Source of the DNA: an uncultured Flavobacteriaceae bacterium
Lineage (GTDB): Bacteria > Bacteroidota > Bacteroidia > Flavobacteriales > Flavobacteriaceae
Direction: 5' to 3'
Length of the DNA stretch: 43,623 nt
Assembly: GCA_913020075.1 (NCBI GenBank)
Contig: CAJWAE010000008.1
Span: forward strand, 1-43,623
Shown one piece after another: positions 16,482-43,623 of the stretch (position 1 is the first letter of the stretch; each line of letters starts with the position of its first letter). Both the position numbers and the translations under genes were made by a program. Below the pieces are notes generated by a model. It saw nothing but the letters and a program-made list of their open reading frames with translations. It had not been told where the DNA came from and made no database searches.

Positions 16482-17915
16482 TTAATTAACGTCCCAAAAT
16501 ATTTTTGTTGTTTGTTCGTCTCCACCAATAGCAGAGGCAGCTGAGCTTCTGTTAGCTTCGTTTAAATTCTGTTCTACAATTGGATAAGTATACCTAGTTG
16601 GTATAGGTCTCTGAGAAGCTACAGGGATGTTTAATTGTGGTGAATCAAATTTTCTCCACACGTTCCATCCTTCACATCCTCTATTATACATACCAATCCA
16701 AAATTGCATTGCAATTTTTTCTTTCCAATCTCCTGACGCAGTTGTGTAAGCAACATCTGGATTAGCCATATAACTAGTTACATCTGATGCCGATCCACCC
16801 CAATACAAAATTGAAGATTCAATTCCATTATTATAGTGTTGTTCGGCTGTCCCAGTAATGCTATAGCCTCTTTCAGCAGCTTCTGCTTGCAAAAATGACA
16901 CCTCAACAAAATCAATTAGTGTCCCTTCAAAATCAGGAGCTAATATTTGAGCATTGATATGAGAATATTTACCATACGTATTTGTAGCACCATAAGGTCC
17001 TCCTAGATATGCACCATTAACTTTATCTTTGAAGAAATTATCTAATCTTGGATCAGATAAGGCATTCATGTGGTCAATCATTGTGTTAGAAGCTACGTAA
17101 TCTTTTCTTCCAGACTGAACTATAGAAACCCAAATAGGATTAGTGTTAGGAGGTGCACCTAAGTACTGCAATGTTGTATTGTCTGCATTGGATGTAAATA
17201 CTCCCGCAGCAACAGCTTGCTCTGCAGCAGCTTTCGAAACTGATGGATTAACGTCAGATAATCTCATTGCTAATCTTAACTTAAGTGAATTAGCAAACTT
17301 AGACCAAGCAGCTAGATCTCCACCATATATAAGATCAGCTTTTGTAAACCCACCAGGAGCACTTCCTAGTTGACTTATTGCAGTATCTAGACGTATCATT
17401 AAATCAGCATATATAGTTGCCGCGTCATCATAAGCTGGAAGAATATTTTCCTTTGGATTTAGAGCCTCTGTATAAGGCACATTTCCAAAAGTATCTACCA
17501 GGTTTTGCCATGCATAAACCTCAAGAACAGTAATTTGGGCTTCTTCTCCAACTTTATTTACGGAAGTTCCATTAATAGCTCTCTCTTTTGCATCTTTAAA
17601 ATCGAACAAAACATCTGTGTACATTTCTGACCAGTGATTTCTCGATATATTTCTGTTTTGTACCTCATAGTTCGACTCGTCTGTATAAGTTGTTTGTGCC
17701 CAATACTGAGCTAAAAACTTATATATACTTGTATTATAGTTAGTCGTTACCATTTCATCCACTAGTGATTTTGAAGCCGAAGTGAATAGTGTTGCGTAAG
17801 GAACCACTGAAGGGTCCTTTGGGTTTCTGTTTAAAGTTTCATATTCAATGTCAGTTTGACACGCAACGAAAATTAAAGAAAAACACGCAAATAAAATTTT
17901 ATAGTTTGTTTTCAT
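16482..17915 (-). CDS. SusD/RagB-like outer-membrane lipoprotein
   Basis: MKTNYKILFACFSLIFVACQ lipobox; LFTSASKSLVDEMV...YKFLAQYWAQTTYTDESNYEV...FVEVSFLQAEAAERGY typical of SusD-like_2. Track start 17966 overlaps SusC; ATG at 17915 is preferred. Confidence 0.92.
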   Translation of the reverse strand: MKTNYKILFACFSLIFVACQTDIEYETLNRNPKDPSVVPYATLFTSASKSLVDEMVTTNYNTSIYKFLAQYWAQTTYTDESNYEVQNRNISRNHWSEMYTDVLFDFKDAKERAINGTSVNKVGEEAQITVLEVYAWQNLVDTFGNVPYTEALNPKENILPAYDDAATIYADLMIRLDTAISQLGSAPGGFTKADLIYGGDLAAWSKFANSLKLRLAMRLSDVNPSVSKAAAEQAVAAGVFTSNADNTTLQYLGAPPNTNPIWVSIVQSGRKDYVASNTMIDHMNALSDPRLDNFFKDKVNGAYLGGPYGATNTYGKYSHINAQILAPDFEGTLIDFVEVSFLQAEAAERGYSITGTAEQHYNNGIESSILYWGGSASDVTSYMANPDVAYTTASGDWKEKIAMQFWIGMYNRGCEGWNVWRKFDSPQLNIPVASQRPIPTRYTYPIVEQNLNEANRSSAASAIGGDEQTTKIFWDVN

Positions 17916-17925
17916 GTTTATTTTT

Positions 17926-20900
17926 TTAGAATTGAAGTTTAAGACTAGCACCAATTTCTTTAACACCTAATGGAGCTCCAGACTGGTAACCTGTAATATT
18001 TCCTGCAGATAATCCGAATTCTGGATCTGAGTAAGGTGAATTTTTACTAATGATCCATAAGTTTTTTCCGATTACAGATAAAGTAGCAGAGTTCACAAAG
18101 CCTCCAAATACGCTAGTTGGAATACCATAAGATAAACGAATCTCTCTTAATTTAACATAAGAGGCATCCCATACGTGCTGTTCTTGAATACCAGTTTTAT
18201 ATCCATAAGGATTTCTATAGTTATGGTGTTCTGTTCTAGCAGTTGGGCCTGATCCGTCGGGATATACACCATCAAGTAAAACTCCACCACCATTAGCTAC
18301 ACGATCTCTTTTTGGATTTCCGAGTTCGTTGAGTCCAGCTGAACGATCATAGATTCCAGTTGCAAAACCGTAATATGTATCAAGAGAGAAAAAGTCACCT
18401 CCTTCTTGAATATCTATTAAAAAGCTAAAAGAAATATTTTTATAGTTAAACATATTTCTAATTCCAGCATTCCAGTCAGGAGTTTGATTACCAATAATTT
18501 CATTATTTAAATCAGTCCTAAGAAAAGCTGGGCCATATGACGCACCATTAGGGTTTTCATCAGTAAGTAATTTTACTCCGGCTGAGTTACGTTGAAATCC
18601 TCTACCTCTTATTGCACCGTAAGCTTCACCGGGTACAGCATGAATGCTAACACCACCTTGGAAAGCTCCAAGTTGAAGAGTTTCTAATCCTTCAGCTAAC
18701 TCCAAGACTTCACTTTTATTATTAGACCAAGTACCAGAGATATTCCAGCTAAAGTCCTGAGTCCTGATAGGGATTACAGAAAGCATTAATTCTATTCCTT
18801 TATTTTCTATACTTCCAGCATTCAACCATTTTGCAGCTACACCTGTAGCAGTAGAAACATCTACTGGAGTTAAAAGATCTTCTGTTCTTTGATTGTAATA
18901 AGAAGCATCTAGAGTAACTCGTGAATCAAATAAAGAAGCTTCAATTCCAAATTCTGTAGATTTAGTAATCTCAGCTTTTAAACCAAGATTATTAAATGCA
19001 CTTGGATTTGATGCCAATCCATTTCCATCGAAAGGATCACCTAAGTTATAAGAGCTAAATACATTGTAAGGATTGGTATCATTTCCAACCTCAGCATAGT
19101 TTGCTCTTATTTTACCAAATGTCAAAAAGTCTAAGTTAATAATTTCAGAAAACACCATAGTACCAGATACAGAAGGATAAACAAATTTATTTCCTGTTAT
19201 TGGAAGAGTACTCGATCTATCTCTTCTTAAAGAAGCTTCAAGGAAATAAGTATTATCATATCCAGCAGAAACATTTGCAAATACTCCATCTACCATATTT
19301 TGAGCTGTATATTCAGATGGTGCAAGTGGTGCATTTGCTGAATTAGCTAGAGTATATAGTCCACGAATATTTAAACCACCATTTGTTGAAGCTCCAATTG
19401 AGCTATAGTTTTGCTCTCTTAGATTAGCACCTATATTTCCGTTTAAACTAATTTCATTAAAGTTTTTCTTGAAGTTAACCCTTACATTATAATTGAATTC
19501 ACTTCTTGTTCTATTAATTCTTGAATAATTAGATACATCAACACTACCAACATTAATTCTTTCTTCAATTAAAGAGTCAGAGGTATCAAAACTAACTTGT
19601 GCTAATACGTTTATCCAGTCATTAAACTCATAAAACAGATTTGCATTACCATAGTATCTAGTTTTCGTATCTGTTTCAAAATTTTCGAATAATGTCCATC
19701 CAATATTATCAAAATAAATAGGATCTGTATCATCCCAACTGTACGAATTCCAAGTCATATTTTCTTTGTGTTCCTGGTAAACTCTAATTTGTTCAACAGG
19801 GTCAACATTTACTTGCCACCATTGTCTGTGACTCTGTAATAAGTTTCTAGAATCGTATCCAGTACCATTTCTACCTTTACCATCTGTTTTGATTAAATTG
19901 ACAGAGGCAGAAGCCTTGAAACGATCTGTAATATTGTATGAGCTGTTAAAAGAAATAGTATTTCTTTTAAGTTTACTATTTGGAACAATACCTTCAGAAT
20001 CTAGATTGGTAAAACCAATTCTAAAATTTCCATTTTCATTACCGTCTTGAATCGAAACGCTATTTATGAATGTCGAAGCTGTTTGATATAAATCGTTTGG
20101 TGTATTTGGCGCTGCCAAATAAGGTGTAGCTTTCTTATAGTTTGCTAATTGAGGCCATTGAGAATCCCACTGATAAGCTAGGTCTGGGTTAGCAGGATTA
20201 AATCTTGTTCCAAATGATGCATCTTCAGTAAAAGGAGATGTTATATCATCAGTACCGTTACCATCAACATCATATAAGAAAAAACCAGCTCCAGGACCGT
20301 CATAATATGCACCATAACCACCACCATATTCATTTTGATATTTAGGTGCTGTATCTAAATTTATATTTCCTGAAGTAAATGAAGAATTTATAGTTACTCC
20401 AAATCCATCTTCAGTTCCGCTTCCTTTTTTAGTTGTAATTACAATTACACCGTTTGAACCACGAGAACCATATAGTGCAGTTGCAGCAGCTCCTTTAAGT
20501 ACAGACACTGTGTCAATGTCATCTGGATTAATGTCCATGGCACCATTACCAAAGTCATAACCTCCTCTACCGCCTCCATTACTATTGTTAATTTCATTAG
20601 TAATAGGAGTACCGTCAACAATAAATAAAGCTTGGTTGTTACCGTATAGAGAACTGTTACCTCTAATTATTACATTAGCTGAACCTCCAAATCCTCCTGT
20701 GGATTTAATATTTAAACCAGCAACTTTACCTTGCATAGAAGTAAGAAAGTTTGTGTCTTTAACAGCTGCAATATCGTCACCTTTAACTGTAGATACAGAA
20801 TAACCGAGTGATTTCTTGTCTCTACTTATACCAAGAGAAGTTACAATAACCTCTTCAAGTTCGTTAGATTGATTTAGAGATATTGAACTGAAATCAGAAT

Positions 20901-21144
20901 CACTATTTAAGGTCAAGGATTCATATCCTATAAAACTAATAGTAACTGATGAGTCTTCTGCAATAGTAATTGTGAAGTTTCCGTCAAAATCTGTTAGAGT
21001 TCCGTTGTCAGTTCCATCTTCAACCAGAGTTGCTCCTGGGAGAGGTAGTCCTTGATCGTCAGCAACAGAACCAGATATTGTCTTTTGTGCCAATGCAAAT
21101 TGAACGCAAAGAAGAAAAGACAACAAAAAGTATATTTTTTTCAT
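17926..21144 (-). CDS. SusC/RagA family TonB-linked outer membrane protein
   Basis: Signal peptide, CarboxypepD_reg-like domain, plug (LTSMQGKVAGLNIKSTGG...VIIRGNSS...FIVDGTPI...VLKGAAATALYGSRGSNGVIVITTKKG), C-terminal beta-barrel. Confidence 0.96.
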   Translation of the reverse strand: MKKIYFLLSFLLCVQFALAQKTISGSVADDQGLPLPGATLVEDGTDNGTLTDFDGNFTITIAEDSSVTISFIGYESLTLNSDSDFSSISLNQSNELEEVIVTSLGISRDKKSLGYSVSTVKGDDIAAVKDTNFLTSMQGKVAGLNIKSTGGFGGSANVIIRGNSSLYGNNQALFIVDGTPITNEINNSNGGGRGGYDFGNGAMDINPDDIDTVSVLKGAAATALYGSRGSNGVIVITTKKGSGTEDGFGVTINSSFTSGNINLDTAPKYQNEYGGGYGAYYDGPGAGFFLYDVDGNGTDDITSPFTEDASFGTRFNPANPDLAYQWDSQWPQLANYKKATPYLAAPNTPNDLYQTASTFINSVSIQDGNENGNFRIGFTNLDSEGIVPNSKLKRNTISFNSSYNITDRFKASASVNLIKTDGKGRNGTGYDSRNLLQSHRQWWQVNVDPVEQIRVYQEHKENMTWNSYSWDDTDPIYFDNIGWTLFENFETDTKTRYYGNANLFYEFNDWINVLAQVSFDTSDSLIEERINVGSVDVSNYSRINRTRSEFNYNVRVNFKKNFNEISLNGNIGANLREQNYSSIGASTNGGLNIRGLYTLANSANAPLAPSEYTAQNMVDGVFANVSAGYDNTYFLEASLRRDRSSTLPITGNKFVYPSVSGTMVFSEIINLDFLTFGKIRANYAEVGNDTNPYNVFSSYNLGDPFDGNGLASNPSAFNNLGLKAEITKSTEFGIEASLFDSRVTLDASYYNQRTEDLLTPVDVSTATGVAAKWLNAGSIENKGIELMLSVIPIRTQDFSWNISGTWSNNKSEVLELAEGLETLQLGAFQGGVSIHAVPGEAYGAIRGRGFQRNSAGVKLLTDENPNGASYGPAFLRTDLNNEIIGNQTPDWNAGIRNMFNYKNISFSFLIDIQEGGDFFSLDTYYGFATGIYDRSAGLNELGNPKRDRVANGGGVLLDGVYPDGSGPTARTEHHNYRNPYGYKTGIQEQHVWDASYVKLREIRLSYGIPTSVFGGFVNSATLSVIGKNLWIISKNSPYSDPEFGLSAGNITGYQSGAPLGVKEIGASLKLQF

Positions 21145-24882: not shown

Positions 24883-25344
24883 TTATATGCAATACCCAGT
24901 AGTATGAAACATTTCTTTTAAAACAAAGTAGCTTTCCAGAATCCCTATATTTTCAATTTTAGAAAGCTTAATTCGAACAAATTGATGATATTCATCTAAA
25001 CTCTCAAGATTTATTTTTAAAAAAAAATCAACTTTGCCAGCCATGTGATAACATTCTTGAACTTCATTAAGTCCATTGATTTGACTTTCGAATTTATCAA
25101 TAAATCCTTCATTGTGATAACGTAAGGAAACCATACAAATTACTGTTACAGGTCTGTGGATTAATTTTTTATTTAAAATAGCTACATACTTTTTAATATA
25201 TCCCTTCTTTTCTAGTTTTCGAGTGCGTTCATAAACTGGAGAAGCGCTAAGATTTAAAATTTCCGCAATTTCCTTAGTTGTTCTCCTAGAATTTTCTTGC
25301 AATATTCTAAGAATTTTTAAATCAATTTGGTCTATAATTTCCAT
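24883..25344 (-). CDS. Lrp/AsnC family transcriptional regulator
   Basis: IDQIDLKILRILQENSRRTTKEIAEILNLSASPVYERTRKLEKKGYIKKYVAILN HTH followed by AsnC ligand domain. Preferred start MEIIDQID at 25344. Confidence 0.93.
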   Translation of the reverse strand: MEIIDQIDLKILRILQENSRRTTKEIAEILNLSASPVYERTRKLEKKGYIKKYVAILNKKLIHRPVTVICMVSLRYHNEGFIDKFESQINGLNEVQECYHMAGKVDFFLKINLESLDEYHQFVRIKLSKIENIGILESYFVLKEMFHTTGYCI

Positions 25345-25513
25345 AGGACAATGTTTTTTACTTTCAACAAGACTAAAGTAAATCATTAAAAGTAAATATG
25401 TTTGACAATATTTAATTTTAAAGATAAAAATACTCATATTTTCAATTATTAAAGATTATATGTGTTTATAAGTAGATTTATTTATAATTTTATTTTTTAC
25501 CATAAAAACTATT

Positions 25514-27719: not shown

Positions 27720-30700
27720 CTAGTTTAAAATAATTGTTGGTATTTGACCGCTTGTTTTGTTAATAGCTTTCACTTTTTCTTTTATTTCAGCCAATAGTTT
27801 TTGCGCTTCTTTAACCTCCGATTCAAGACTAGTAGTCCTTTTATTTTGAGCTATTGTAGGTGGATTTGTCGTATTATCTATAGCTCTCATTAAAGATCGT
27901 ATTTCCTCTCTTAATCTAGGTCTTTGTCTGTAATTCATAACAGGAGAGGGACGTTTAAGGGTTTCATTTAAAAAAGAAAGACTGTTTTCATGAAGTGCTC
28001 TTGTGTCAAGAATTAAAGACTCCCATTTATTATTATTTAACAATTTGAGTTTAGTCTGCAAATCATTTAATTGAATATTTATTGAAATAACATCATCAAT
28101 GATTTTATGAGTTTCAGATTGAAGATCTCTTAAACTCAACAAGGACCTAACTTTTTTCTCATAAAAATTCTGACTCATTCCTATTCTGGGATCTCCTAAA
28201 ACATTAATATTAGAACTTTGTTCAACACCGCTTGTTTTTATGGACACCGTATACGAGCCTGGAGCAACTTTTGGGCGAATTAATGAAGATGAAAACCCTT
28301 CTTTTATAGAATTTTTTAACGGTATTGCTCCATCATATCCAAGATCCCATACTATTCTATTTACACCTCGAATAGCTGTTGAGTCAATTAATGTTGTAAT
28401 TAGTTCCCCTTTTTCATTCTTTATATGTGCAGTTATGCTGTTAACTGGAGAATCATTAAGGTAGTAGTTGATATAAGCACCATATTCAGGATTTTTGGCT
28501 TTATAGGTGCGATCTCCCAAATTCTCAATTCTCCAATACATATTCCAAAGAAAAGCTTCACGAACATTAAAAATTTTCAATTCTTCAGAACTTGCAGAAG
28601 ATAATTCTTCTATAGGACGAATATCATCTAAGATATATGCTCCTCTTCCGTGTGTTCCTACTATTAGATCTCTATCCCTAGCCTGAATTCTAATATCACG
28701 AACAGAAACATTGGGGAGATTGTTATTGATTTTTTCCCATTTTTTTCCTAAATCCCAACTTGCATATATACCATGTTCCATCCCAGCAAATAATAAGTTT
28801 GGATTATGTGGGTCTTGACGAACTACTTTTACATAGTCGTCATTTGGGAGTTTTTCAGAAATCGATTTCCAAGTTTTTCCAAAGTTGGAGGTATGGAAAA
28901 TATATGGTTTGAAGTCATTCATTCGATGTTGGTCAACAACAACGAATGCTGTTCCAGCATCATGTTCTGAGGCATGTATTTTTGAAACCCACGAAAAATC
29001 AGGAAGACCTTTGATATTGTCTTTTACGTTTTCCCAACTCTCACCACTATCTAATGAAACTTGAATATTCCCATCATCAGTACCTGCCCATAATACTCCT
29101 TTTTGAACAGGAGACTCTGCAAGATAGAGGACAGTACAATGGAATTCAGCAGCGGTGTTGTCTTGATAAATTGTTCCTCCTGAAGTTTTTTGTTTTGATT
29201 TATCATTAGTAGTCAGGTCTGGGCTTATAACTTTCCAGCTGTTTCCCCTATCATTTGATCGAAAAACAACATTTCCAGCCATATAGACAACCTCAGGATC
29301 GTGAGGAGAGATAAGCAAGGGGGAGTCCCAATTAAAACGATATTTATGAAATTCTATAGCATCACCAGCAGAACCTGTAATAGTTGGGTACGGATGGATA
29401 TTTTGTACATTACCGTAGCGAGAATCTACAAGAAAGGGAACTCCACCTTGAAGGTTTGTATACACTTTATGTTCAGCTCCAGGTATTGGGACTGCGAAAT
29501 ATCCATCACCATATGCTAATCCCTTCCAGTGTCTTTTTAATATTCCAGCTTCATAAAGAGAATTGCTTGGTCCAACCCAGGTTCCATTATCTTGAAGTCC
29601 ACCATATACATTATACGGCTGTTGATTATCCACAGCCAATTGATAAAATTGTGAAAGCTCAATATTATTTATAATTTCCCAACTATCTCCACCATCAAAT
29701 GATCTTTGAAATCCACCATCACTTCCGTTTAATATGTAGTTTGAGTCAGAAGGATCTATCCATAAAGCTTGATGGTCTCCATGTACTGTATTTGCTATTC
29801 TTTCAAATGTTATTCCACTATCTACTGAACGGCTTAAACGTCCAGAAATTGAAAAAAGAACATTTGGATGATTGGGATCCACGCGAACATCACTATAATA
29901 AAAAGGTCTAAAATTGATGTTTGGATCATCATTAACCATTTTCCAATGATCTCCTCGATCCTGAGAACTAAAGACTGTTCCACCTCCTTCAAATTCAGTA
30001 ATTAGATAAACAATATTAGGTTTGCTTTGAGCGATGTGAATACCAGGTCTTGCCATATTAGTTTTTGGAAGACCATCCATTATTTTTTCCCAAGTTTCTC
30101 CGCCATCTATAGTTCTAAATAGTGAAGTCTCTTTTCCTCCATCATCAAAGCGCCAAGGCTTTCTTCTAAAGGTCCACATTGCTGCATACATAATTCTGGG
30201 ATTATCATTTTCCATTGTAATGTCAGCACAACCTGTGTCCTGATCAATGTATAATATTTTTTTCCAGCTTTTACCACCATCTTTAGTTTTAAACACACCT
30301 CTTTCTTTGTTTGGCCCCCACTCTTTTCCTAAAGCACAAACACAGGCTATATCAGGATTATTTGGATCCACCACAATTCTTTTAATACGTTCTGTATTTT
30401 CTAAGCCTAAGTGATTCCAATTTTCACCACCATTAACAGAGCGGTATACTCCCCACCCGTAGCCGACACTGTTTCTTGGGTCACCCTCTCCTGTTCCAAC
30501 CCACAAAACATTCGGATTAGAAGGTGCAATTGTTAAGGCCCCTATAGAATATGCGCGTTGTCCTTCAAATATTGGAGTAAAATTGACCCCTCCATTGACA
30601 GTTTTAAAAATTCCTCCATCAGCACCACTTACGTAAAATGTACTTTTATCGCCAGGAATTCCGTCAATATCCGTTACTCTTCCACCCATATTTGCTGGAC

Positions 30701-30836
30701 CAATCGCCCTCCATTTATATTTACTTAGTGCAGAAGAATTTTTAAAATCAGTCTGTGAGTTGATATTTATGGGAATTATTATAAGTAGACAAATCAAGTA
30801 TGTGAATGAAAAATTGGAATAAAAAAGAATTTTCAT
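27720..30836 (-). CDS. Large secreted Asp-box (BNR/VPS10/sortilin-like) beta-propeller protein
   Basis: About 11 Asp-box-like motifs (e.g. SVNGGENW, TKDGGKSW, TIDGGETW, SFDGGDSW, SLDSGESW); VRDIRIQARDRDLIVGTHGRGAYILDDI typical of this family. Preferred start 30836 with signal peptide. Confidence 0.88.
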   Translation of the reverse strand: MKILFYSNFSFTYLICLLIIIPININSQTDFKNSSALSKYKWRAIGPANMGGRVTDIDGIPGDKSTFYVSGADGGIFKTVNGGVNFTPIFEGQRAYSIGALTIAPSNPNVLWVGTGEGDPRNSVGYGWGVYRSVNGGENWNHLGLENTERIKRIVVDPNNPDIACVCALGKEWGPNKERGVFKTKDGGKSWKKILYIDQDTGCADITMENDNPRIMYAAMWTFRRKPWRFDDGGKETSLFRTIDGGETWEKIMDGLPKTNMARPGIHIAQSKPNIVYLITEFEGGGTVFSSQDRGDHWKMVNDDPNINFRPFYYSDVRVDPNHPNVLFSISGRLSRSVDSGITFERIANTVHGDHQALWIDPSDSNYILNGSDGGFQRSFDGGDSWEIINNIELSQFYQLAVDNQQPYNVYGGLQDNGTWVGPSNSLYEAGILKRHWKGLAYGDGYFAVPIPGAEHKVYTNLQGGVPFLVDSRYGNVQNIHPYPTITGSAGDAIEFHKYRFNWDSPLLISPHDPEVVYMAGNVVFRSNDRGNSWKVISPDLTTNDKSKQKTSGGTIYQDNTAAEFHCTVLYLAESPVQKGVLWAGTDDGNIQVSLDSGESWENVKDNIKGLPDFSWVSKIHASEHDAGTAFVVVDQHRMNDFKPYIFHTSNFGKTWKSISEKLPNDDYVKVVRQDPHNPNLLFAGMEHGIYASWDLGKKWEKINNNLPNVSVRDIRIQARDRDLIVGTHGRGAYILDDIRPIEELSSASSEELKIFNVREAFLWNMYWRIENLGDRTYKAKNPEYGAYINYYLNDSPVNSITAHIKNEKGELITTLIDSTAIRGVNRIVWDLGYDGAIPLKNSIKEGFSSSLIRPKVAPGSYTVSIKTSGVEQSSNINVLGDPRIGMSQNFYEKKVRSLLSLRDLQSETHKIIDDVISINIQLNDLQTKLKLLNNNKWESLILDTRALHENSLSFLNETLKRPSPVMNYRQRPRLREEIRSLMRAIDNTTNPPTIAQNKRTTSLESEVKEAQKLLAEIKEKVKAINKTSGQIPTIILN

Positions 30837-31002
30837 AGTATTTTTTTTAAGTGAGTTGACAATATTATTTATATCTGTCATTAAGTGCGAATACTGTTGA
30901 TTTATGATTGATTAGTACACTATATTACTAAAAAGTATTTAAATTTTTTAGGGATTTAACATTTTTTTAGTAATTTGGTATTTCAAACTTAAAATTAATC
31001 AT

Positions 31003-34000
31003 ATGTCAAATCAATTTAAAACTTCAATTGCAAGTTTATGCAAAACGGTTTTTCTTATAGGTTTTATGTTTCCAGTATTTGTTTTTTCTCAGCAATCAAT
31101 TTCAGGGAATATAACGGATGCCGATACAGATGAACCCCTTTTAGGAGTAACGATTTTAATTCAAGGAACGAAAAAAGGAACTGTTTCGGACTTTGATGGA
31201 AATTATTCTATTACTAATCTCGAAGCTGGTGATTATGTATTGGAGTTATCCTACACTGGATATAAAAACTTTACTCAGGCTGTTAACGTTGGCTCCTCAG
31301 ATCAAGAAGTTTCTATTCAAATGGAATTTTCTGCTTCCCAACTAAATGAAATAGTTGTTACAGGAACAGGTGCTCCAATTGCACGTAAAAAAATAGGGAA
31401 TAGTATTGGATCTATTTCAACAAGTAAATTAGCAGACCTGCCTATTAATTCTTTTTCAGATCTTTTACAAAGTAGAGAACCTGGTATAATTGCATTTCCA
31501 TCAGGAGGTTTAACAGGTGAAGGAGCTCAAATAAGAATTAGAGGTAATGCTTCATTATCTCAACTAAACGAACCTATTGTAATAGTTGATGGAATTCGAG
31601 TTGACCGAGGTGGTGGTTACGGTGGTGGTTTTGTAAATTCAGGTGGAGGGTCTCCTTCCCGTTTGGATGATATCAATCCAGAATCTATAGAGAGAGTGGA
31701 AATCCTTAAAGGTGCTTCTGCAGCAACCCTATTCGGAACTGAAGCCAGTAATGGTGTAATTCAAATTTTTACCAAAAAGGGTAAAAGTGGAATTCCAAAG
31801 TTTGGTTTTAAAGCAACACAAGGTTTTATAAATTATCCCATTGGTGCTGTTCCAGACAATACAGGCTTTACTAATAGCGCTTCAAGAGCTACAGAATTAA
31901 CTGGTCTTCTTGGATATAGTGTTAAACCTTATCAATTACTTTCTTTTAACGCTATGGAAGATCTTTACGAAACTGGCGTTCAAAATTCAATAACTGCCGA
32001 TGTTTCAGGTGGAACTAATATAATTACTTATTTTACTTCGGTTCGTTATTCTTACACAGACGGTCCATTTGGTGGAAAAGAAAGAGAAGGATATTTAGAA
32101 GGCCAGGAGACACAAGCACAAGATATTGACAGATTAGCTCAATTCAATCTAAATTTAAATATCAATCCAAATGATAAATTTAGTCTTCGATTGACACAAG
32201 GATTTACATCTAGATTTAATGCTACAGCCGAAAATGGTAATAATATTTATGGAGTTGGATCTTTAGCACAATTTAGTAAACCGGAGCTTGTAAAAGATAA
32301 TAATTCAACGGGTACAATTGCATTTGCCACTGTGGACGAGACGCTTCAACTTTCTTTTGGTTCAAAAGTAAATAATTACAATGGGAGTATAGGATTAAAC
32401 TATTATCCCATTGACTGGATTAAAATCGATGGTACATTTGGACTAAACTTTGTTAGTCAATCAAGTACAAATTTCCAACCTTTTGGTTGGAACATTGACG
32501 GTTTTTCTGGGAGTAATCCTCAAGGACAGTTAAGTGCTGATACAAGAAATTTCTTAGCTCAAACTGCTGAGCTTAAAATTATCCTTGATAATAAGATTGG
32601 AAGTAACATTACATCCAATCTTATATTGGGTGGACAATATGTATCACAGGAAACTAAATTAATAGGAGCTCAAGGAACACAATTTCCTGGACCAGGTTTT
32701 GAGGTAACTTCAGCTGCAGGAGTTTTAAATATTTTTGAATTTTTTGAAGAAACGAAAAATGCAGGAGTATTTGCTCAAGAACAGCTCGGATTTAATGATA
32801 ACTTGTTTGTGACAGTTGGTGGAAGGTTAGATGCGCATTCTGCATTTGGAAGTGATTTTCAAGCTGCGTTTTATCCTAAGATATCTGCTTCTTATATTCC
32901 TTCCGATTCTGCTAGTTGGTCAAATATTGGCCCAGTAAGCTCTTTACAACTAAGAGGATCTTATGGGTGGTCTGGTCTTCAGCCGGGTGCATTTGATGCA
33001 CTAACTACATATTTAGCTTTAGCTTCTGCTAGTGGTGCAGGTATTGCACCAAATAATCTTGGAAATCCTGCTTTAAAACCTGAGATTTCTAAAGAATGGG
33101 AAGCTGGTTTTAGTGCTGGATTAATCGATGATAAAGTAAATTTAGAATTTACTTATTTTGATCGTGTTACTGAAGATGCATTATATGCGAGACAATTTCC
33201 CTTATCTGGTGGATTTCGAAATCCACAATTAACAAACATTGGAGAGTTATCAGCACACGGTATGGAAATAAGTCTGAGGGGAACAGTTATTAGAACTAAA
33301 GATCTTCAACTTAACCTATTCGTTAATGGGGCATATTATAAAGATAAGGTTGTCAGTTTAGGCGGTGCTCCACCACTAAAAGTAGGTGGATCTTATCCAA
33401 GATATCGTAACTATTTAAAAGAAGGTTTTGCTCCAGGTGCCAACTTTGGTGCTCAGCTATTAGAAGTTGGGGCAAATCAACTTCCTGTTGATATTGCAAA
33501 TTCGGATGGTCTTCCAGATACTAGAGATCAATTACTTTCTTATTTTAATGGAAAAACACCTGACGATGTTGGAAGTGTCCCTACATCAATTGGAACTGGA
33601 AAAGTTCTCTTAAGAGATGATGATGGTGATGGAGATTACTTAGATCATTATCTTGGTAAATCAACACCAGACTGGACAGGTGCTTTTGGAGGTTCACTTT
33701 CATACAAAAACTTTACTCTTAGTACTACCTTTGAGTACAAGGCTGGAAATTTTGTGATAAACAATTTGACAGATGCATTTCGCCAAGCTAATGGTGCGAT
33801 TGGACGTAACTTGCCATCATCATCTCGAACTGTAAGAGATTATGCTACAGGAGGGGTTGATGCTAGTTTTAATCCTCAGAACGACCCAAATGTAAGGGTT
33901 GATGCTTTAGGAGATTGGGTGAATAACACGTTAGCTTTATCGCCTTTTTCAGGTCTAAATACACTCGAAAAGGCTGATTTTATTAGTTGGAACGAGTTAA

Positions 34001-34239
34001 GTTTAAATTATAAATTTACAGGAGGCCTTTTAGATACCTTTAATTTTGATAGAGCTACTCTAGGAGTTTCAGGAAGAAACATAGCGATGTTTACAGGTTA
34101 CACTGGTGTAGACCCTAGAATAAACTTTATCGGTAGAGGAAGTGGAAGTGCACTGAGCCAAAATTTTGGACAAGGTATTGCCGCTTTTGGATGGCCTATT
34201 CCAAGACAAGTAATGATTACTCTTAAAGTAGGATTCTAA
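31003..34239 (+). CDS. SusC/RagA family TonB-linked outer membrane protein
   Basis: CarboxypepD_reg-like N-terminus (ISGNITDADTDEPLLGVTILIQGTKKGTVSDFDGNYSI), plug with VEILKGASAATLFGTEASNGVIQIFTKKG, C-terminal barrel. Confidence 0.96.
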   Translation: MSNQFKTSIASLCKTVFLIGFMFPVFVFSQQSISGNITDADTDEPLLGVTILIQGTKKGTVSDFDGNYSITNLEAGDYVLELSYTGYKNFTQAVNVGSSDQEVSIQMEFSASQLNEIVVTGTGAPIARKKIGNSIGSISTSKLADLPINSFSDLLQSREPGIIAFPSGGLTGEGAQIRIRGNASLSQLNEPIVIVDGIRVDRGGGYGGGFVNSGGGSPSRLDDINPESIERVEILKGASAATLFGTEASNGVIQIFTKKGKSGIPKFGFKATQGFINYPIGAVPDNTGFTNSASRATELTGLLGYSVKPYQLLSFNAMEDLYETGVQNSITADVSGGTNIITYFTSVRYSYTDGPFGGKEREGYLEGQETQAQDIDRLAQFNLNLNINPNDKFSLRLTQGFTSRFNATAENGNNIYGVGSLAQFSKPELVKDNNSTGTIAFATVDETLQLSFGSKVNNYNGSIGLNYYPIDWIKIDGTFGLNFVSQSSTNFQPFGWNIDGFSGSNPQGQLSADTRNFLAQTAELKIILDNKIGSNITSNLILGGQYVSQETKLIGAQGTQFPGPGFEVTSAAGVLNIFEFFEETKNAGVFAQEQLGFNDNLFVTVGGRLDAHSAFGSDFQAAFYPKISASYIPSDSASWSNIGPVSSLQLRGSYGWSGLQPGAFDALTTYLALASASGAGIAPNNLGNPALKPEISKEWEAGFSAGLIDDKVNLEFTYFDRVTEDALYARQFPLSGGFRNPQLTNIGELSAHGMEISLRGTVIRTKDLQLNLFVNGAYYKDKVVSLGGAPPLKVGGSYPRYRNYLKEGFAPGANFGAQLLEVGANQLPVDIANSDGLPDTRDQLLSYFNGKTPDDVGSVPTSIGTGKVLLRDDDGDGDYLDHYLGKSTPDWTGAFGGSLSYKNFTLSTTFEYKAGNFVINNLTDAFRQANGAIGRNLPSSSRTVRDYATGGVDASFNPQNDPNVRVDALGDWVNNTLALSPFSGLNTLEKADFISWNELSLNYKFTGGLLDTFNFDRATLGVSGRNIAMFTGYTGVDPRINFIGRGSGSALSQNFGQGIAAFGWPIPRQVMITLKVGF

Positions 34240-34267
34240 AATGAAAACAATAAAAAACACTTATACA

Positions 34268-35569
34268 ATGAAAAAAATATTTCTTTTATTATTACCTAGT
34301 TTATTGTTTGTTGGTTGTACTCTAGATGCTGACAATCCCAACAATTTACTAGAAGAACAGCTTAATATAACAGCATTTCCTCCCATGGTTAATGGTCTTG
34401 AAGGTGTTCTTGTTAGGGCTTATGGAAACATTCTTGCTCCCTATTCTGTAGCGAGTGATGAAATGATATGGATAGGTTCACGTGATGCATGGCAGCAGCT
34501 AAATTTTGGAAATGTGGACAATATTAACAATGAGTTTATTGATGGAGCTTTTTTTCCTGTGAATGAAGCTAGATACTGGGCTGACGCCGTAATATCTAAA
34601 GGTGAAGAATTTAGTTCATCTAATGCATTCACCCCATCCGATAAATCTGATTTAGTTAGAGCATACTGGTACGGAGCAATTATCTATATTGTTATTGCAG
34701 ATATGTTTGATGATTTTGTTGTTGGATCGGTTAAAACAGAAGGTAGTCCCCCAGTTGGTGCTGCAAATATGAGTTCTTTGTATGATACTGCAATTAGTTA
34801 CTTAGATAAGGCGTTAGCTTTAAATTCAGGACTTACAGCTCCTCTTAAAGCGACCAAAGCCAGAGCTCATTTTTCAAAGGGAATATGGTCTAAAACTAAT
34901 CCTGTTAACACAGCAAGTCCTCTTGTTAGTTCTTCAGCTGCAGCAGCTTTAGCTCAGGAAGCTTTAGCCGCATTAGGCGAAGACTTTTATGTAAACTTAC
35001 TAACTTCTGGCTCAGCTCCACAGACCATTGGTGGTTTAGATATCGCAGGTGAAGTAAACGATCGTCTTGAAATGAGAATTTCAGACACTTATGTTATTTC
35101 TTCTGATTCAAAAAGGCCTGATGCTTATACTGATGATGATCCTTCAACTACAATTTCTTTAATGGATCCCATTGATAACATAGCAGATCCAGCACTTTTC
35201 AAGCTAGTCGCTGATTTTACTATCGCGCAGCTCTATCCAGAATATCCAGTAGTTTCCGGAAGAGAAATGCACTTAATAATTGCTGAAAATGCACTAGCAA
35301 CTGGTGATAATGCTACGTTTACGACACATATTAATAAAATCAGAGCACTTGACGGATTAACTGATTATTCTGGTCAGATTGACGCACAAGATCTACTTGA
35401 GCACTCAAGAAGAGTTAATCTTTTCCTTCAAGGTAGAAGATTGGCTGATCATTATCGCTTTGGGAAACCATCCGAATATTGGATTTCTACCTCTCCTGCG
35501 ATAAATTCTCCAGGTTCGTTTTTTCCGATCACAATTTCTGAAATTCAATCAAACGACAATATAAATTAG
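34268..35569 (+). CDS. SusD/RagB-like outer-membrane lipoprotein
   Basis: MKKIFLLLLPSLLFVGC lipobox; VSGREMHLIIAENALATGD and RRVNLFLQGRRLADHYRFG typical of SusD C-terminus. Confidence 0.9.
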   Translation: MKKIFLLLLPSLLFVGCTLDADNPNNLLEEQLNITAFPPMVNGLEGVLVRAYGNILAPYSVASDEMIWIGSRDAWQQLNFGNVDNINNEFIDGAFFPVNEARYWADAVISKGEEFSSSNAFTPSDKSDLVRAYWYGAIIYIVIADMFDDFVVGSVKTEGSPPVGAANMSSLYDTAISYLDKALALNSGLTAPLKATKARAHFSKGIWSKTNPVNTASPLVSSSAAAALAQEALAALGEDFYVNLLTSGSAPQTIGGLDIAGEVNDRLEMRISDTYVISSDSKRPDAYTDDDPSTTISLMDPIDNIADPALFKLVADFTIAQLYPEYPVVSGREMHLIIAENALATGDNATFTTHINKIRALDGLTDYSGQIDAQDLLEHSRRVNLFLQGRRLADHYRFGKPSEYWISTSPAINSPGSFFPITISEIQSNDNIN

Positions 35570-35590
35570 GATCCAATTGAATTATAAATT

Positions 35591-35620
35591 AAAAACCCTT
35601 CAGAATATGAAGGGTTTTTT
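35591..35620 (+). terminator. Rho-independent terminator after second susD-like gene
   Basis: AAAAACCCTTCA / TGAAGGGTTTTT stem with 5-nt loop followed by T-tract. Confidence 0.85.
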
Positions 35621-35848
35621 TATTGTAAATTTTAAAAGTTACACCAAGTAAAAAAGTTTTAAGTTCCATCTATTAATCAATAAAGACAGTTTAATTAAAT
35701 GTTTATAGAATCAATGGAATTAAATAAATCTAAATCTAGTAGGTGTTATTTTCAATAAATAAAAACAGAAAAAATGATTTCACAGATTTTATCATAAACG
35801 ATTATGGATTTAATTAATAATATAATCAAGAATATTTAAAAGAATAAA

Positions 35849-37219
35849 TCAGCTTTTATTTTTTATAACATTTCCCTTTTTTATAACTAAATCAACATCT
35901 TGTAACAAAGAAATGTATCTAATAACGTCGCCTTTAACAGCAATTATATCTGCCTGTTTCCCTGGAGTAATAGTACCTACTTTATCAGACACTCCCATAA
36001 AAACAGATGGCCAGTAAGTTGCAGACTTGATTGCCTGCAAAGGAGAAATCCCCAATTCATTCACCCAAATATCAAGTTCATTCCATGTACTTTGAGAATG
36101 GAATTTCATGGGTACTCCACTATCAGTTCCAATTAAAAGGACAACACCGGTATTTTTTAATTGATTAAACTTTGTTTTTAATGTTGGCTTTCTAATAGGG
36201 GTTAACTGAAAATATGGAAGTTTTCCAGGATGTTTAATGGAGTTTTGAATATCTTTTATAATGTGATTTGGTAATCCCAGATGCCAACTAGTATTGTCTA
36301 AAATTTCAGAATTTTTAATGGTATAGTCATAGTTATATAATACTTCTATTGTAGGTGTCCAAAAAAGAGGTCCTTTATTCATTTGAGCAGTTCTTTCTTG
36401 AATTAATTGGATTATATCAGCAGGATATTCAGGAGCAGATGATAAGCCAGTGTGTTCAAAGTTGTCTACCCCAGCCTTTAAACCCAATCTTATCTCATCA
36501 GGTCGATGGGAATGAGCAACAACTTTTAAATTGTTTTTATGGGCTTCGTTAACAATTGCTTGAATTTCCTCAAAACTCATCTGATCTTGATCAATTAATT
36601 TTATACAATCAACTCCTGCTTTTGCTAATAACCTTATCTTTTTCTTTGCATCTTCTGGATTTTTAATTCCCCATCTAAATGCTTCTGTACCTGGATAAGG
36701 ATTTTTTTGGATAAATGGACCGCTAACATACATTGTAGGACCTAGAATTTCTCCTTTATTTATTTTATTTCTAACTGAAATACTTGCTTTCAACGGAGCA
36801 CCGAGATCTCTTGCACTTGTAACTCCTGCCATAAGCAACTGATTTGCGGAAGAAGGCATTATTACTTCTTCAAATTGATCTATATAGGTTTTATCCCAAT
36901 GCGTATAGTCAGAATGTCCGTTAAGCATTAAATGGACATGCATATCCCATAAACCTGGCATAACTGTCATTCCTTCTGTGCTTATAATCTTAATTCCTAG
37001 TGGAACTTCCAGAGTGGCAATAGTTCCAACGCTAATAATTTTCTCACCATCCAAGAGAATAACACTATTTTTTATTGGATCATTTCCAAAACCATCAATG
37101 AGGGTGCCGCCAACAAGCGCAACTGACTGAGAGTTAGCAATTAAAAAGCTAAATAGTATACCAATATATAATGTTTTTCTAATCATTTTCTTTATATTTA
37201 AGTATTTTAATAAATTCAT
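35849..37219 (-). CDS. Secreted amidohydrolase family protein (imidazolonepropionase/prolidase-like)
   Basis: MPGLWDMHVHL (HxH), GVDCIKLI (putative carbamylated Lys), VVAHSH, NFEHTG, IGTDSG; C-terminal GKQADIIAVKGD. Start at 37219 or 37186 (MIRKTLYIGILFSFLIANSQ). Confidence 0.92.
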   Translation of the reverse strand: MNLLKYLNIKKMIRKTLYIGILFSFLIANSQSVALVGGTLIDGFGNDPIKNSVILLDGEKIISVGTIATLEVPLGIKIISTEGMTVMPGLWDMHVHLMLNGHSDYTHWDKTYIDQFEEVIMPSSANQLLMAGVTSARDLGAPLKASISVRNKINKGEILGPTMYVSGPFIQKNPYPGTEAFRWGIKNPEDAKKKIRLLAKAGVDCIKLIDQDQMSFEEIQAIVNEAHKNNLKVVAHSHRPDEIRLGLKAGVDNFEHTGLSSAPEYPADIIQLIQERTAQMNKGPLFWTPTIEVLYNYDYTIKNSEILDNTSWHLGLPNHIIKDIQNSIKHPGKLPYFQLTPIRKPTLKTKFNQLKNTGVVLLIGTDSGVPMKFHSQSTWNELDIWVNELGISPLQAIKSATYWPSVFMGVSDKVGTITPGKQADIIAVKGDVIRYISLLQDVDLVIKKGNVIKNKS

Positions 37220-37232
37220 TATGACCTCTTTT

Positions 37233-38966
37233 ATGAAACGTAAAGGCTTTTTTGTTTTAATATTAAATTTAATCTTTTTCACCTTATTTTCTTGTAATCC
37301 TAAAAGGAATTCAATTATAAAAGTAAAATATTCAAGTGCTTTAGGTAATGAGGGTTTTGACGGAAGACTTTTAGTTATTATTAGTAAAGATGTCAAAACA
37401 GAGCCCAGGTTTCAAATCAATGATTCAGATAAAACAGCTGTAATTATTGGTAAAAATATTCAAAACTGGATGCCTAACTCCACTGAAAGTTTTAATTCTG
37501 AAACTCTAGCATATCCAATTGATGAATTGGGAGACCTTCCAGATGGAAACTATTATATCCAGGCAATATTAAATAAATATGACACATTCAATTTATCTAG
37601 TGGTTTTGAGGTTCAGCTTCCAATGGATCAGGGCGAAGGGCAAAAATGGAATATTAGCCCAAAAAATATTTACAGTAAACCTATGAGGGTGAATTTATCT
37701 AATAGTGCTAAATCCATTGAAATAGAAATAACCGAGGAAATTCCATCAATAGAACCTGAAAAGGACACAAAACATATAAAACACATTAAAATCCAAAGCA
37801 AAATTCTGACCGAGTTTTGGGGTAGACCTATGTATCTTCAAGCAAACGTTCTTATTCCAGAAGGTTTTTCTAAAGAAAGTGAAATTGAATATCCATTGAT
37901 GGTTTTTCATGGTCATTTTCCTAAAACAGTAGGAGGGTTTAGAACAACTCCTCCAAGTGCCATAAAAAATGACAGTATATATAGTAGTCGATTTAACATA
38001 ACAGGATATAAATATATTCAGGAAAAAGAGGCCTTTGACTTTTATCAAAAATGGATATCAAATGATTTTCCTCGTTTTTTAGTGCTTGAAATTCAACATC
38101 AAAACCCCTATTATGATGACTCGTATGCAGTGAATTCAGCCAATATTGGTCCTTATGGGGATGCTATAACCTACGAGTTGATTCCTCATATTGAAAAAAT
38201 ATTTAATGGTGTTGGTAAGGGCTGGGGTCGTTTTCTTTATGGAGGCTCAACTGGTGGATGGGAAGCCTTAGCTGCTCAGGTGTTTTACCCTAAAGAATAT
38301 AATGGTTGCTTTGCTGCTTGCCCAGACCCCATTGATTTTAGAGCATATACGGTAATAGATTTATATAAAGATAAAAACGCATATTACAGTGAGGGGGACT
38401 TTAAAAAAACTCTTAGACCAGGAATGAGAGACGGAAAAGGACGTATCAAAACTTCTTTAAAAGATATTAATAGAAAAGAACATATCCTTGGAAATAAAAG
38501 TAGATCAGGCGATCAGTGGGATATCTGGCAGGCGGTCTATTCTCCTGTTGGAGATGACGGATATCCAAAACCTATCTGGGATAAACTTTCAGGCGAAATT
38601 GATATAGAAGTAGCTAATTATTGGAAAGAAAATTATGATTTAAGATTTATTATGGAGCGTGATTGGGATAAAATAGGTTTTGATTTAGTAGGTAAAATCA
38701 ATCTTTATTGCGGTGATATGGATAATTATTATCTCAATAATGCGGTTGTTTTAACTGAACAATTCCTTGAAAACAGATCTAATCCATATTATGATGGGGA
38801 AGTCGATTATGGAAATAATGCAGAGCATTGTTGGAATGGAGACCAAGAAAATCCAAATTATATATCAAGACTTCGATACAACACCTTGTATTTGGATAAA
38901 ATTCAAGAACGGTTAAAAAAAACAGCTCCTAAAAATAATAGATTACAAAATTGGAATATTAAATAA
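37233..38966 (+). CDS. Secreted/lipoprotein esterase-like protein (alpha/beta hydrolase fold)
   Basis: N-terminal lipobox-like LIFFTLFSC; LYGGSTGGWEALAAQVF nucleophile elbow; GKINLYCGDMDNYYLN and NAEHCWNG near the C-terminus. Confidence 0.8.
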   Translation: MKRKGFFVLILNLIFFTLFSCNPKRNSIIKVKYSSALGNEGFDGRLLVIISKDVKTEPRFQINDSDKTAVIIGKNIQNWMPNSTESFNSETLAYPIDELGDLPDGNYYIQAILNKYDTFNLSSGFEVQLPMDQGEGQKWNISPKNIYSKPMRVNLSNSAKSIEIEITEEIPSIEPEKDTKHIKHIKIQSKILTEFWGRPMYLQANVLIPEGFSKESEIEYPLMVFHGHFPKTVGGFRTTPPSAIKNDSIYSSRFNITGYKYIQEKEAFDFYQKWISNDFPRFLVLEIQHQNPYYDDSYAVNSANIGPYGDAITYELIPHIEKIFNGVGKGWGRFLYGGSTGGWEALAAQVFYPKEYNGCFAACPDPIDFRAYTVIDLYKDKNAYYSEGDFKKTLRPGMRDGKGRIKTSLKDINRKEHILGNKSRSGDQWDIWQAVYSPVGDDGYPKPIWDKLSGEIDIEVANYWKENYDLRFIMERDWDKIGFDLVGKINLYCGDMDNYYLNNAVVLTEQFLENRSNPYYDGEVDYGNNAEHCWNGDQENPNYISRLRYNTLYLDKIQERLKKTAPKNNRLQNWNIK

Positions 38967-38995
38967 AAAGATATCATTTTATAAAACTCACAGTC

Positions 38996-40564
38996 ATGAA
39001 AAAAAGTATACTAATATTAATTATTCACATACTAATTATTTCTCCACTATACTCTCAGGAATTGTTTGGTGGACTTGCAGCAGGCCCATATAATAAATTA
39101 GTTATTAGAGGAGCTATGGTCATTCCAGGTCATGGTGGACCTCCGGTTGGACCTTATGATATTGTTGTTAAAGGAAATAAAATTACTGATATGATTCCCT
39201 TTGATCCCGTCACAGCTAAAAGAAGAGGAATCGTAAATAGAGAAGAAGGAGATAGAGTTATAGACGCGACAGGTAAATACGTAATGCCCGGCATGATTGA
39301 CCTTCACACTCATTTAAGAACAGAGCCAATGCCTCTGGAGTATATTTATTATTTAAAATTAGCTCATGGAGTAACAACTATGGTTCCAGGTTCGGACAGA
39401 GGACTAATTCCCGGAATGAATCAGGCTAAATTGAGTAAAGAAAATAAAATTCTTGCACCAAAACTTTTTCCTATTTGGTCTTATGGTGCAACTACAAAAT
39501 ATGATAAAATAGCTCTTGATGATCCGAAAAATACTCCTGATGTAGTAAAAAAAATGTTTGAAAATGGTGCTCACGTTGTAAATGCAGGAAATTTAGGATG
39601 GAGTCAAGAACTGCTAAAAGCAGTTTGTAAAGCGGTTAAAGAAAATGGTGGAATCACAACTTATCATATACCTCCCAGTACAACTGCAGTGACTAAAGCT
39701 ATAGATGCTGCAAGATTAGGGGTTACAATGATTGAACACCATTATGCCTATGCTGAATCTGCATTAGATAGACAGGTTCAAGATTTTATTCCGACTTATA
39801 ATTACAATGATGAAAACGAAAGATTTAGACAAGCAGGTAAGGTATGGTCTCAAACAAATGAAAAAGTTTTACTTAATGAAATTGCAGATTCATTAGTATA
39901 TTATGGTGTAACAATGCTTCCAACTCGAGTTGTTTATGAGGCTAATCGAGATATTCTCAGAGCACAAAGCTTGCCTTGGCATAAAAAATATACTCATCAA
40001 TTATTAATAGAAAGAAATGGTCCAGACCCAAATTATCACGGAGCTTATCATTATGATTGGACAAGTGATGATGAATATTATTGGTCTAATGCTTTTAATC
40101 TTTGGGGAGATCTTATTTTTGAGTTTAATAAAAAAGGAGGTAGAGTGGCTTATGGTACAGACGATAGTTATATTTTTGCAACTCCTGGTTTTTCTAATAT
40201 AAGGGAATTACAGCTTTTAAGGGAAACAGGAATGCATACACTTGAAGTGTTAAAATCGGCAACTTTAAATAGTGCTTTAACCCTTCGGCAAGAGAAATTA
40301 GGCTTAGTTCGACCAGGATATATAGCAGATTTAATTATTGTAGAAGCCAGCCCTTTATATAATCTAAGAAACATGTATCAGTTTGGAGCTTTAACTGAGG
40401 ATGTTAATGGCAATATGATAAGAAAGGGAGGGATTTTACACACCATTAAAGATGGAATTGTAATTGAAAATCAGAAGCTAATGATCGAAGTTGAAAAAAT
40501 GGTTAAAGAGTCTAAGAAAAACGCATTACCCTCTGCAATGGAGGTCCCTTTTATTATTAACTAA
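38996..40564 (+). CDS. Secreted amidohydrolase family protein
   Basis: VMPGMIDLHTHL, TTYH, MIEHHYAY, YGTDDS metal-site motifs; LRQEKLGLVRPGYIADLIIVEASPL C-terminus. Confidence 0.9.
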   Translation: MKKSILILIIHILIISPLYSQELFGGLAAGPYNKLVIRGAMVIPGHGGPPVGPYDIVVKGNKITDMIPFDPVTAKRRGIVNREEGDRVIDATGKYVMPGMIDLHTHLRTEPMPLEYIYYLKLAHGVTTMVPGSDRGLIPGMNQAKLSKENKILAPKLFPIWSYGATTKYDKIALDDPKNTPDVVKKMFENGAHVVNAGNLGWSQELLKAVCKAVKENGGITTYHIPPSTTAVTKAIDAARLGVTMIEHHYAYAESALDRQVQDFIPTYNYNDENERFRQAGKVWSQTNEKVLLNEIADSLVYYGVTMLPTRVVYEANRDILRAQSLPWHKKYTHQLLIERNGPDPNYHGAYHYDWTSDDEYYWSNAFNLWGDLIFEFNKKGGRVAYGTDDSYIFATPGFSNIRELQLLRETGMHTLEVLKSATLNSALTLRQEKLGLVRPGYIADLIIVEASPLYNLRNMYQFGALTEDVNGNMIRKGGILHTIKDGIVIENQKLMIEVEKMVKESKKNALPSAMEVPFIIN

Positions 40565-42592: not shown

Positions 42593-43623
42593 TTACTTCG
42601 CTACCCTTTTTAGCATCAACAAACGAAAGTCCATCACCTGTGTCCCAGGAATTTCGAGTGCTTTTAATATTAAAAATCCTTTCCCCTTTTTAAGCTCAAT
42701 GGTTCCTACAGAGATTTTCATAAAGTCTTTTGCATAGGATTCTGTTCTTGGGCTTCTATCGTATTCCACGTTTTGGAACAAAGGGTCATATGCCTCTTTT
42801 ATTTCACCTATAAGTTTATTATTTCGAAAACTTAGCTCGAAAATAGAACCAATATCTTTAGGTGGGCAGGTGTAATAAAGCTCTACCTCAAACCTACCAC
42901 TTTCCAATACTTCTGCTTCCCAACTTATACTGTCTGAAACGCTTGTCCAATTAGTAAAGAATGAGCTATTGGGGAATTTATTGGAACGTTTGATGTTGCC
43001 ATAAGGGATTCCATCACGTGCAGGAATCTGAGTAAAAGTATAATCAGGATGTCCTATGAGAAAAGTTCGGATATCTATTTCTGGAAGTTCTGAAAACACT
43101 TCTGCCTTCCATCTCTTTTTTTCTTGGATAAATTGTTGCAGTAATTCTGGTTGTTGGGATGAAACATCCACCCTCTGTCCTGGATCTTTTTCCATATCAA
43201 AGAATTTCCCTTCAGGACCTAATCGATATTGCTGATTTCTAATACTAATTTTTTTCGCCCAATAATTAACGATAAATCGATCTTTCCACTTCGGATTAGC
43301 CTCTAATAATAAAGGCTTAAGACTTTTTCCGTCCAACGTTTTTTGTGGTACATAATCAATTCCAAATAAATCAGTTAACGTTGGTAAAAGATCTAGTACA
43401 CTAGCAATTTGTGTTATCGTCTTTCCGGCTTTTAATGTACCACTCCATTTCATAAATAGGGGAGATCGGACGCCTCCTTCATTTGTTGAACCCTTTGCCC
43501 CTTTCATGTCACCGTTCCAGCGAACCCCGTTCGGACCATTATCCGACAAATAAATGATGATGGTATTGTCCGATAATCCGAGTTCTTCAACTTTGGCAAC
43601 AACCCGGCCTACATTCCAGTCGA
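42593..43623 (-). CDS. Sulfatase family protein, C-terminal part (truncated by window edge)
   Basis: DNTIIIYLSDNGPNGVRWNGDMKGAKGSTNEGGVRSPLFMKWSGTLKAG, LPTLTDLFGID, LDGKSLKPLL; the reading frame stays open to 43623. Active-site Cys/Ser motif is outside the window. Confidence 0.92.
   Translation of the reverse strand, partial: DWNVGRVVAKVEELGLSDNTIIIYLSDNGPNGVRWNGDMKGAKGSTNEGGVRSPLFMKWSGTLKAGKTITQIASVLDLLPTLTDLFGIDYVPQKTLDGKSLKPLLLEANPKWKDRFIVNYWAKKISIRNQQYRLGPEGKFFDMEKDPGQRVDVSSQQPELLQQFIQEKKRWKAEVFSELPEIDIRTFLIGHPDYTFTQIPARDGIPYGNIKRSNKFPNSSFFTNWTSVSDSISWEAEVLESGRFEVELYYTCPPKDIGSIFELSFRNNKLIGEIKEAYDPLFQNVEYDRSPRTESYAKDFMKISVGTIELKKGKGFLILKALEIPGTQVMDFRLLMLKRVAK

Follow-up and report, generated by a model that had tools for sequence, protein, structure and literature searches.

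The SusC-SusD pair encoded by this uncultured marine Flavobacteriaceae bacterium may import peptides or amino-acid amides, with exported hydrolases trimming these compounds and an Asp-box protein (AspBox) binding them. This assignment is held with moderate confidence. Peptidase and amidohydrolase genes neighbouring the pair in relatives favour a substrate of the peptide or amino-acid-amide kind, while confidence stays moderate because neither the fold nor the sequence of SusD shows a preference for glycan over peptide and because sugar-type genes are neighbours in some relatives. The pair belongs to a six-gene block (positions 27720-40564) of the window, the whole stretch of 43,623 nucleotides that was analysed. 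The physical grouping of the pair with enzyme genes in the window is one of several arrangements. The block is organized as follows:

27720..30881, minus strand: AspBox, Asp-box protein of ~1040 amino acids, putatively exported (Pfam PF15902/PF02012)
31003..34239, plus strand: SusC/RagA-family TonB-dependent outer-membrane transporter (TIGR04056)
34241..35569, plus strand: SusD-family surface lipoprotein lid (PF07980)
35591..35619, no strand (readable both ways): terminator-like hairpin, 12 pairs and a T run
35849..37186, minus strand: Amd1, putatively exported amidohydrolase of the prolidase / arginine-carboxypeptidase-like group (PF01979)
37221..38966, plus strand: Est, alpha/beta-hydrolase-like lipoprotein (PF00756 below cut-off; GGSTGG)
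38996..40564, plus strand: Amd2, putatively exported amidohydrolase (PF01979/PF07969)

This six-gene layout had been described in an earlier note, and the open reading frame list and profile searches confirm it: the Asp-box gene is divergent from the SusC/SusD pair at 31003-35569, which is followed by an amidohydrolase (-), an esterase-like gene (+) and an amidohydrolase (+). The plausible start of Amd1 is position 37186, leaving 34 bases between Amd1 and Est; an ORF started at a TTG would overlap Est. By inspection, SusD and Est have lipobox-like cysteines at their amino termini while AspBox, Amd1 and Amd2 feature signal-peptide-like amino termini, so that all five proteins look exported. The block has the SusC/SusD pair of a canonical polysaccharide utilisation locus. 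No CAZyme was found in it at Pfam and NCBIfam cut-offs: as the earlier note had it, no glycoside hydrolase, polysaccharide lyase or sulfatase profile of these collections scores above cut-off in 27720-40564. A sulfatase fragment (the carboxyl-terminal part, cut by the contig end) is found just outside, 2 kb past the block at 42593-43549 (-). The nearest regulator gene also lies outside the block, as had been claimed, but only just, since 24883-25437 codes for an Lrp/AsnC regulator. The segment 24883-27676, which ends 44 bases before AspBox, carries this regulator gene (-) next to those of an epimerase-fold dehydrogenase and a glycine C-acetyltransferase (Kbl), the latter two probably acting in threonine breakdown. 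A second, unrelated SusC/SusD pair (SusD-like_2, PF12771) is located 6.5 kb before AspBox at 16482-21144 (-); after it come a KTSC/DnaJ-like gene and two genes for DEAD-box helicases.

SusC scores 493 bits against TIGR04056 (cut-off 368) and SusD 25.6 against PF07980 (cut-off 23.1), with residue 26 as the lipobox cysteine of SusD. The AlphaFold model of SusD (pLDDT 84) has a SusD fold according to Foldseek. The PDB entry closest to SusC is 8aa4 (144 bits), which we take to be the SusC of a dextran system, followed by RagA (6sli, 130 bits) and BT2264 (5fq6). The rank of 8aa4 above RagA counts against a peptide cargo. SusD gives 3jq1 as best hit in profile searches and RagB with an E-value of 0.012. 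The Foldseek hits are mixed, and the PDB, profile and Foldseek searches do not single out RagA and RagB as the nearest solved relatives. The comparison with RagB suggested in the earlier note is thus not discriminating, the predicted SusD fitting glycan SusDs equally well, and similarity to RagB was discarded as a clue to the substrate because neither Foldseek nor profiles show a preference for it.

A search of genome contigs yielded 36 SusD relatives, distributed over Flavobacteriaceae, Saprospiraceae/Lewinella, Rhodothermota, Marinimicrobia, KSB1 and Gemmatimonadota. Where the contig extends far enough, SusC adjoins almost every one of them. Other SusDs of the sampled Flavobacteriaceae match the window protein weakly (E 1e-7 or worse), which makes the latter a distinct family; 59 positions are invariant among 24 of its members. 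The SusD tree tracks taxonomy for the most part and points to long vertical descent in Flavobacteriaceae. A sister SusCD subfamily is present in f24, a distant family within the phylum. It is treated as related rather than orthologous because its branch is long (1.3 changes per column) and its SusD lacks two motifs of the window SusD, and this distance weakens what its neighbours can say for peptide import.

The neighbour survey comprises 168 proteins from 32 loci, which are not a random sample. Among the matches listed, the commonest neighbour families include amidohydrolases (15, many of them supplied by sister-type loci), M14 (8), M28 (5), S10 (4) and Pro_dh (4), and the only carbohydrate-degrading-type family with at least two members among these matches is 3keto-disac_hyd (2). 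Within the genus, the gene of a GCPII-like (glutamate-carboxypeptidase-II type) M28 peptidase follows SusD in several genomes, together with an ftsZ/ftsA cluster; the window genome encodes an M28 peptidase elsewhere, outside the block. In other Flavobacteriaceae the pair is found beside M28 (L039) or a tricorn-type S41 peptidase (L056), and in Saprospiraceae beside an Asp-box protein and DPP4 (L048). Five f24 loci of the window-type clade have an M14 carboxypeptidase gene directly after SusD (L198, L200, L201, L203 and L213), and Asp-box genes flank the pair on both sides in L199 of that family. The eight sister-type loci of f24 all encode Amd2-type amidohydrolases, accompanied by S10 serine carboxypeptidase (seven loci), proline dehydrogenase (five), an SNF (sodium:neurotransmitter)-type symporter (three), an Asp-box protein (three) and, in some, DUF885, M20 or TPR proteins. 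The amide or peptide substrate proposed in the earlier note gains from this recurrence of M28, M14, S10, DPP4, tricorn and amidohydrolase genes beside SusCD of the family and its sister, without being proven by it. Asp-box genes occur near SusCD in four separate groups, where about 1.5-3% per locus is expected; a rough binomial estimate, ignoring phylogeny, puts P between about 1e-4 and 1e-3.

Three other proteins recur at these loci. An exported-looking protein of ~220 amino acids, a partner of both the window SusCD family and its sister, is encoded downstream of SusD in three groups: Marinimicrobia, where it is in tandem (L057, L059, L061, L062, L065), KSB1 (L063:12234-12890) and the loci L204:8461-9126 and L209:13728-14432. 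Its L059 copy has no Pfam match. A lipoprotein-like protein of ~160 amino acids, whose L053 copy gave no Pfam match, is encoded right after SusD in Rhodothermota-type loci (L052, L053, L055, L190, L192, L193, L197, L212). In the genus, a fusion of APH, peptidase M23 and class III aminotransferase is found near or divergent from SusC (L030:3588-6611, L035, L044, L036).

A possible but rather unlikely alternative is that the enzymes of the window are bystanders, the cargo of SusCD being unrelated to them and the amidohydrolase cassette having arrived alongside by rearrangement in the window genome. The recurrent cassette of the genus consists of Amd1, a third amidohydrolase (DAA, 558 amino acids, PRK09061-like below cut-off), AspBox and Est, which are co-directional, and of Amd2, from which they are divergent together with a 196-amino-acid protein on the Amd2 side. 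It is seen in L097, L106 (with an M28 gene inside) and L107, and in part in L108-L112. MoaA-, MocA/MobA- and XdhC-like genes, identified by inspection, flank the cassette in L108, L111 and L113, and Cox/XdhC-like genes precede SusC in L101. The window cassette departs from its relatives in gene order and in the absence of DAA, of which its genome has only a 50% relative elsewhere; both features speak for a rearrangement. So does the separation of SusCD from the cassette in six of the eight resolvable genus genomes (G153, G155, G157, G159, G162, G171), which also counts against the peptide reading; two genomes with loci cut by contig ends (G160, G179) were left out of the eight. Adjacency across the contig break in G162 was considered and rejected, the contig ends being non-overlapping and each continuing into other sequence. 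Of the gene-order conservation that the earlier note proposed to check, the genus shows the recurrence of the cassette, whereas the pair adjoins it only in the two remaining genomes (G000, G184).

The hairpin directly 3' of SusD likewise favours independent neighbours and, by separating SusCD from the enzymes, argues against the peptide reading. It is intergenic, with 12 pairs and a T run, and has the longest stem among the hairpin matches of the region, although such matches are overall no commoner there than in shuffled sequences. Its presence suggests that AspBox, SusC-SusD, Amd1 and Est-Amd2 form four transcription units and that the block is not one operon. The Bacteroidetes-type promoter pattern TTTG-N16-21-TANNTTTG has three matches in the window, not above shuffles, and none in the block; the search for a conserved element upstream of SusC gave nothing beyond a loose match, rich in TTAAC, within AT-rich sequence. 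Outside the genus, Est is mostly solitary, near folD/ffh-like genes, another point for bystanders. It was rejected as a cassette marker there, a distant Asp-box gene being beside it in only 2 of 20 loci. The hairpin, the adjacency in only two of eight genomes and the solitary Est leave the idea of one functional locus weak.

Points against chance neighbourhood are the Amd2 homologues beside sister SusCD at every f24 sister-type locus, the Asp-box genes in four groups, and G184, which has its own SusCD-cassette grouping in a different gene order. Moreover, SusD is present in 10 of 38 genus genomes, and nine of these ten carry one or more of the cassette genes Est, Amd1 and DAA, which 13 of the 38 genomes do in total (hypergeometric P about 4e-5, before correction for the relatedness of the genomes).

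Amd1 resembles the prolidase-like and arginine carboxypeptidase amidohydrolases (Cc2672 and relatives) in sequence and in its metal-ligand positions: aligned to 3mtw and 3be7 it keeps HxH, Lys, His, His and Asp, and these positions match those of arginine carboxypeptidase Cc2672, a point in favour of the peptide reading. It differs from prolidase-like members in falling below the equivalog cut-off of NF051886 (Xaa-Pro dipeptidase; 192 bits, cut-off 500). In Amd2 the HxH, two His and the Asp are invariant in the alignment, and no Lys is found where the related AmdX has 'GLK', which makes a carboxylated lysine doubtful. The f24 homologues are 62-70% identical to the window Amd2 where aligned (65-73% to a genus orthologue), far above the identity of about 40% between the SusDs, and in a small tree the genus Amd2 adjoins one f24 type (SH-aLRT 88). 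This might reflect horizontal transfer of Amd2 between lineages or, on another reading, strong constraint on its sequence. Est scores 20.3 against PF00756, below the cut-off of 22. Profile searches relate it weakly to an esterase and feruloyl esterases (PDB 8z91, E 4e-5), so that a CE1-type label is conceivable. Its alignment shows an invariant GGSTGG serine motif and, close to the carboxyl terminus, a conserved Asp and a conserved His.

AspBox was called Asp-box/VPS10-like in the earlier note, and it does match PF15902 (Sortilin-Vps10) as well as PF02012. Its AlphaFold model (pLDDT 78, pTM 0.76) features a tandem beta-propeller, a beta domain and a carboxyl-terminal helical bundle. The first 25 Foldseek hits are all GH74 xyloglucanases (E-values between 8e-24 and 1.4e-18; target TM at most 0.59), with sortilins far below. 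On this ranking the ten-bladed Vps10 fold was abandoned; the model matches the tandem seven-bladed propeller fold of GH74. Profile alignment to the Clostridium thermocellum xyloglucanase (2cn2/2cn3) places Ala of AspBox at the GH74 catalytic Asp, and this position in the YAR(A/T)DxGG motif is Ala or Thr, never Asp, in all 14 aligned family members. The two PDB entries differ there (Asp in 2cn2, Ala in 2cn3), at what is presumably catalytic Asp70. AspBox is thus more likely a GH74-like binding protein that lacks GH74 catalysis, as judged at this position. Its match to an NCBIfam 'glycosylhydrolase' model lies below cut-off (135 against 175), and with the GH74 fold this means that dbCAN could label it GH74. 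Relatives of the propeller number 1-8 per genus genome at E<=1e-60, a marked expansion for genomes of 1-2 Mb. AspBox shares predicted tandem Asp-box beta-propellers with the GH74 xyloglucanases (PMC2716378) and departs from them by the Ala/Thr at the catalytic Asp and by the additional beta domain and helical bundle.

It is improbable that SusCD imports glycans or glycoconjugates (sugar polymers or sugar-acid oligomers), with AspBox GH74- or lectin-like and Est a carbohydrate esterase: the GH74 fold, 8aa4, the feruloyl-esterase resemblance and the sugar-type neighbours that count against peptides in Saprospiraceae (LacI regulator and SDR in L051, by inspection also apparent uronate isomerase and PfkB kinase genes) and in two Flavobacteriaceae (3keto-disac_hyd and Gfo/Idh-like in L046 and L056) point that way, but the catalytic Asp is replaced throughout the AspBox family, no CAZyme profile of Pfam or NCBIfam scores above cut-off in the block, and the neighbours of SusCD often belong to peptidase or amidohydrolase families.

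From the genes, folds and recurrent neighbours observed, the substrate, catalytic activities and joint working of the peptide importer can be pictured as follows. SusC-SusD, which belongs to a widely conserved family, would act as a 'pedal-bin' importer, its cargo most likely a peptide or amino-acid amide rather than a polysaccharide. Surface SusD and SusC would take in these compounds using TonB energy. The putatively exported hydrolases, namely the prolidase/carboxypeptidase-like Amd1 together with Amd2, Est and the M28 peptidase, might trim them in the periplasm or at the cell surface. The role of the AspBox propeller would be that of a scaffold or binding protein with no GH74 catalysis. 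A broader proposal is that one ancient SusCD family, shared by Flavobacteriaceae, Marinimicrobia, KSB1 and Gemmatimonadota, is throughout a dedicated peptide or amino-acid-amide importer working with exported amidohydrolases and with a catalytically silent GH74-like propeller that binds at the surface. This is considered unlikely; if true, it would be the peptide counterpart of the glycan utilisome. An Asp-box 'glycosyl hydrolase' annotation beside SusCD need not imply glycan use.

The block shares with RagAB of Porphyromonas gingivalis a SusC/RagA-type barrel, a SusD-type lid, the absence of recognised adjoining CAZymes and a proposed peptide substrate. The window pair is not specifically related to RagAB, RagA being second-best in the PDB and RagB no closer than glycan SusDs. 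RagAB is not known to have amidohydrolases or Asp-box proteins as partners. The involvement of a SusCD system in peptide or protein uptake is already known for RagAB (PMC11817032), and CAZyme-free loci are common: among 28,250 SusCD loci of 964 Bacteroidetes genomes 52% have no CAZymes, and 11% of the CAZyme-free loci have sulfatases and peptidases (PMC6499787). The window block belongs to that broad kind. Our literature search found nothing specific on SusCD combined with Asp-box, peptidase and amidohydrolase genes. What is new compared to the survey is that one SusCD family is traced across phyla with recurring amide-cleaving and Asp-box partners. The family occurs among uncultured Flavobacteriaceae as well as in complete genomes from other families, providing a concrete and testable case of peptide or amino-acid-conjugate import among the SusCD loci that lack CAZymes.
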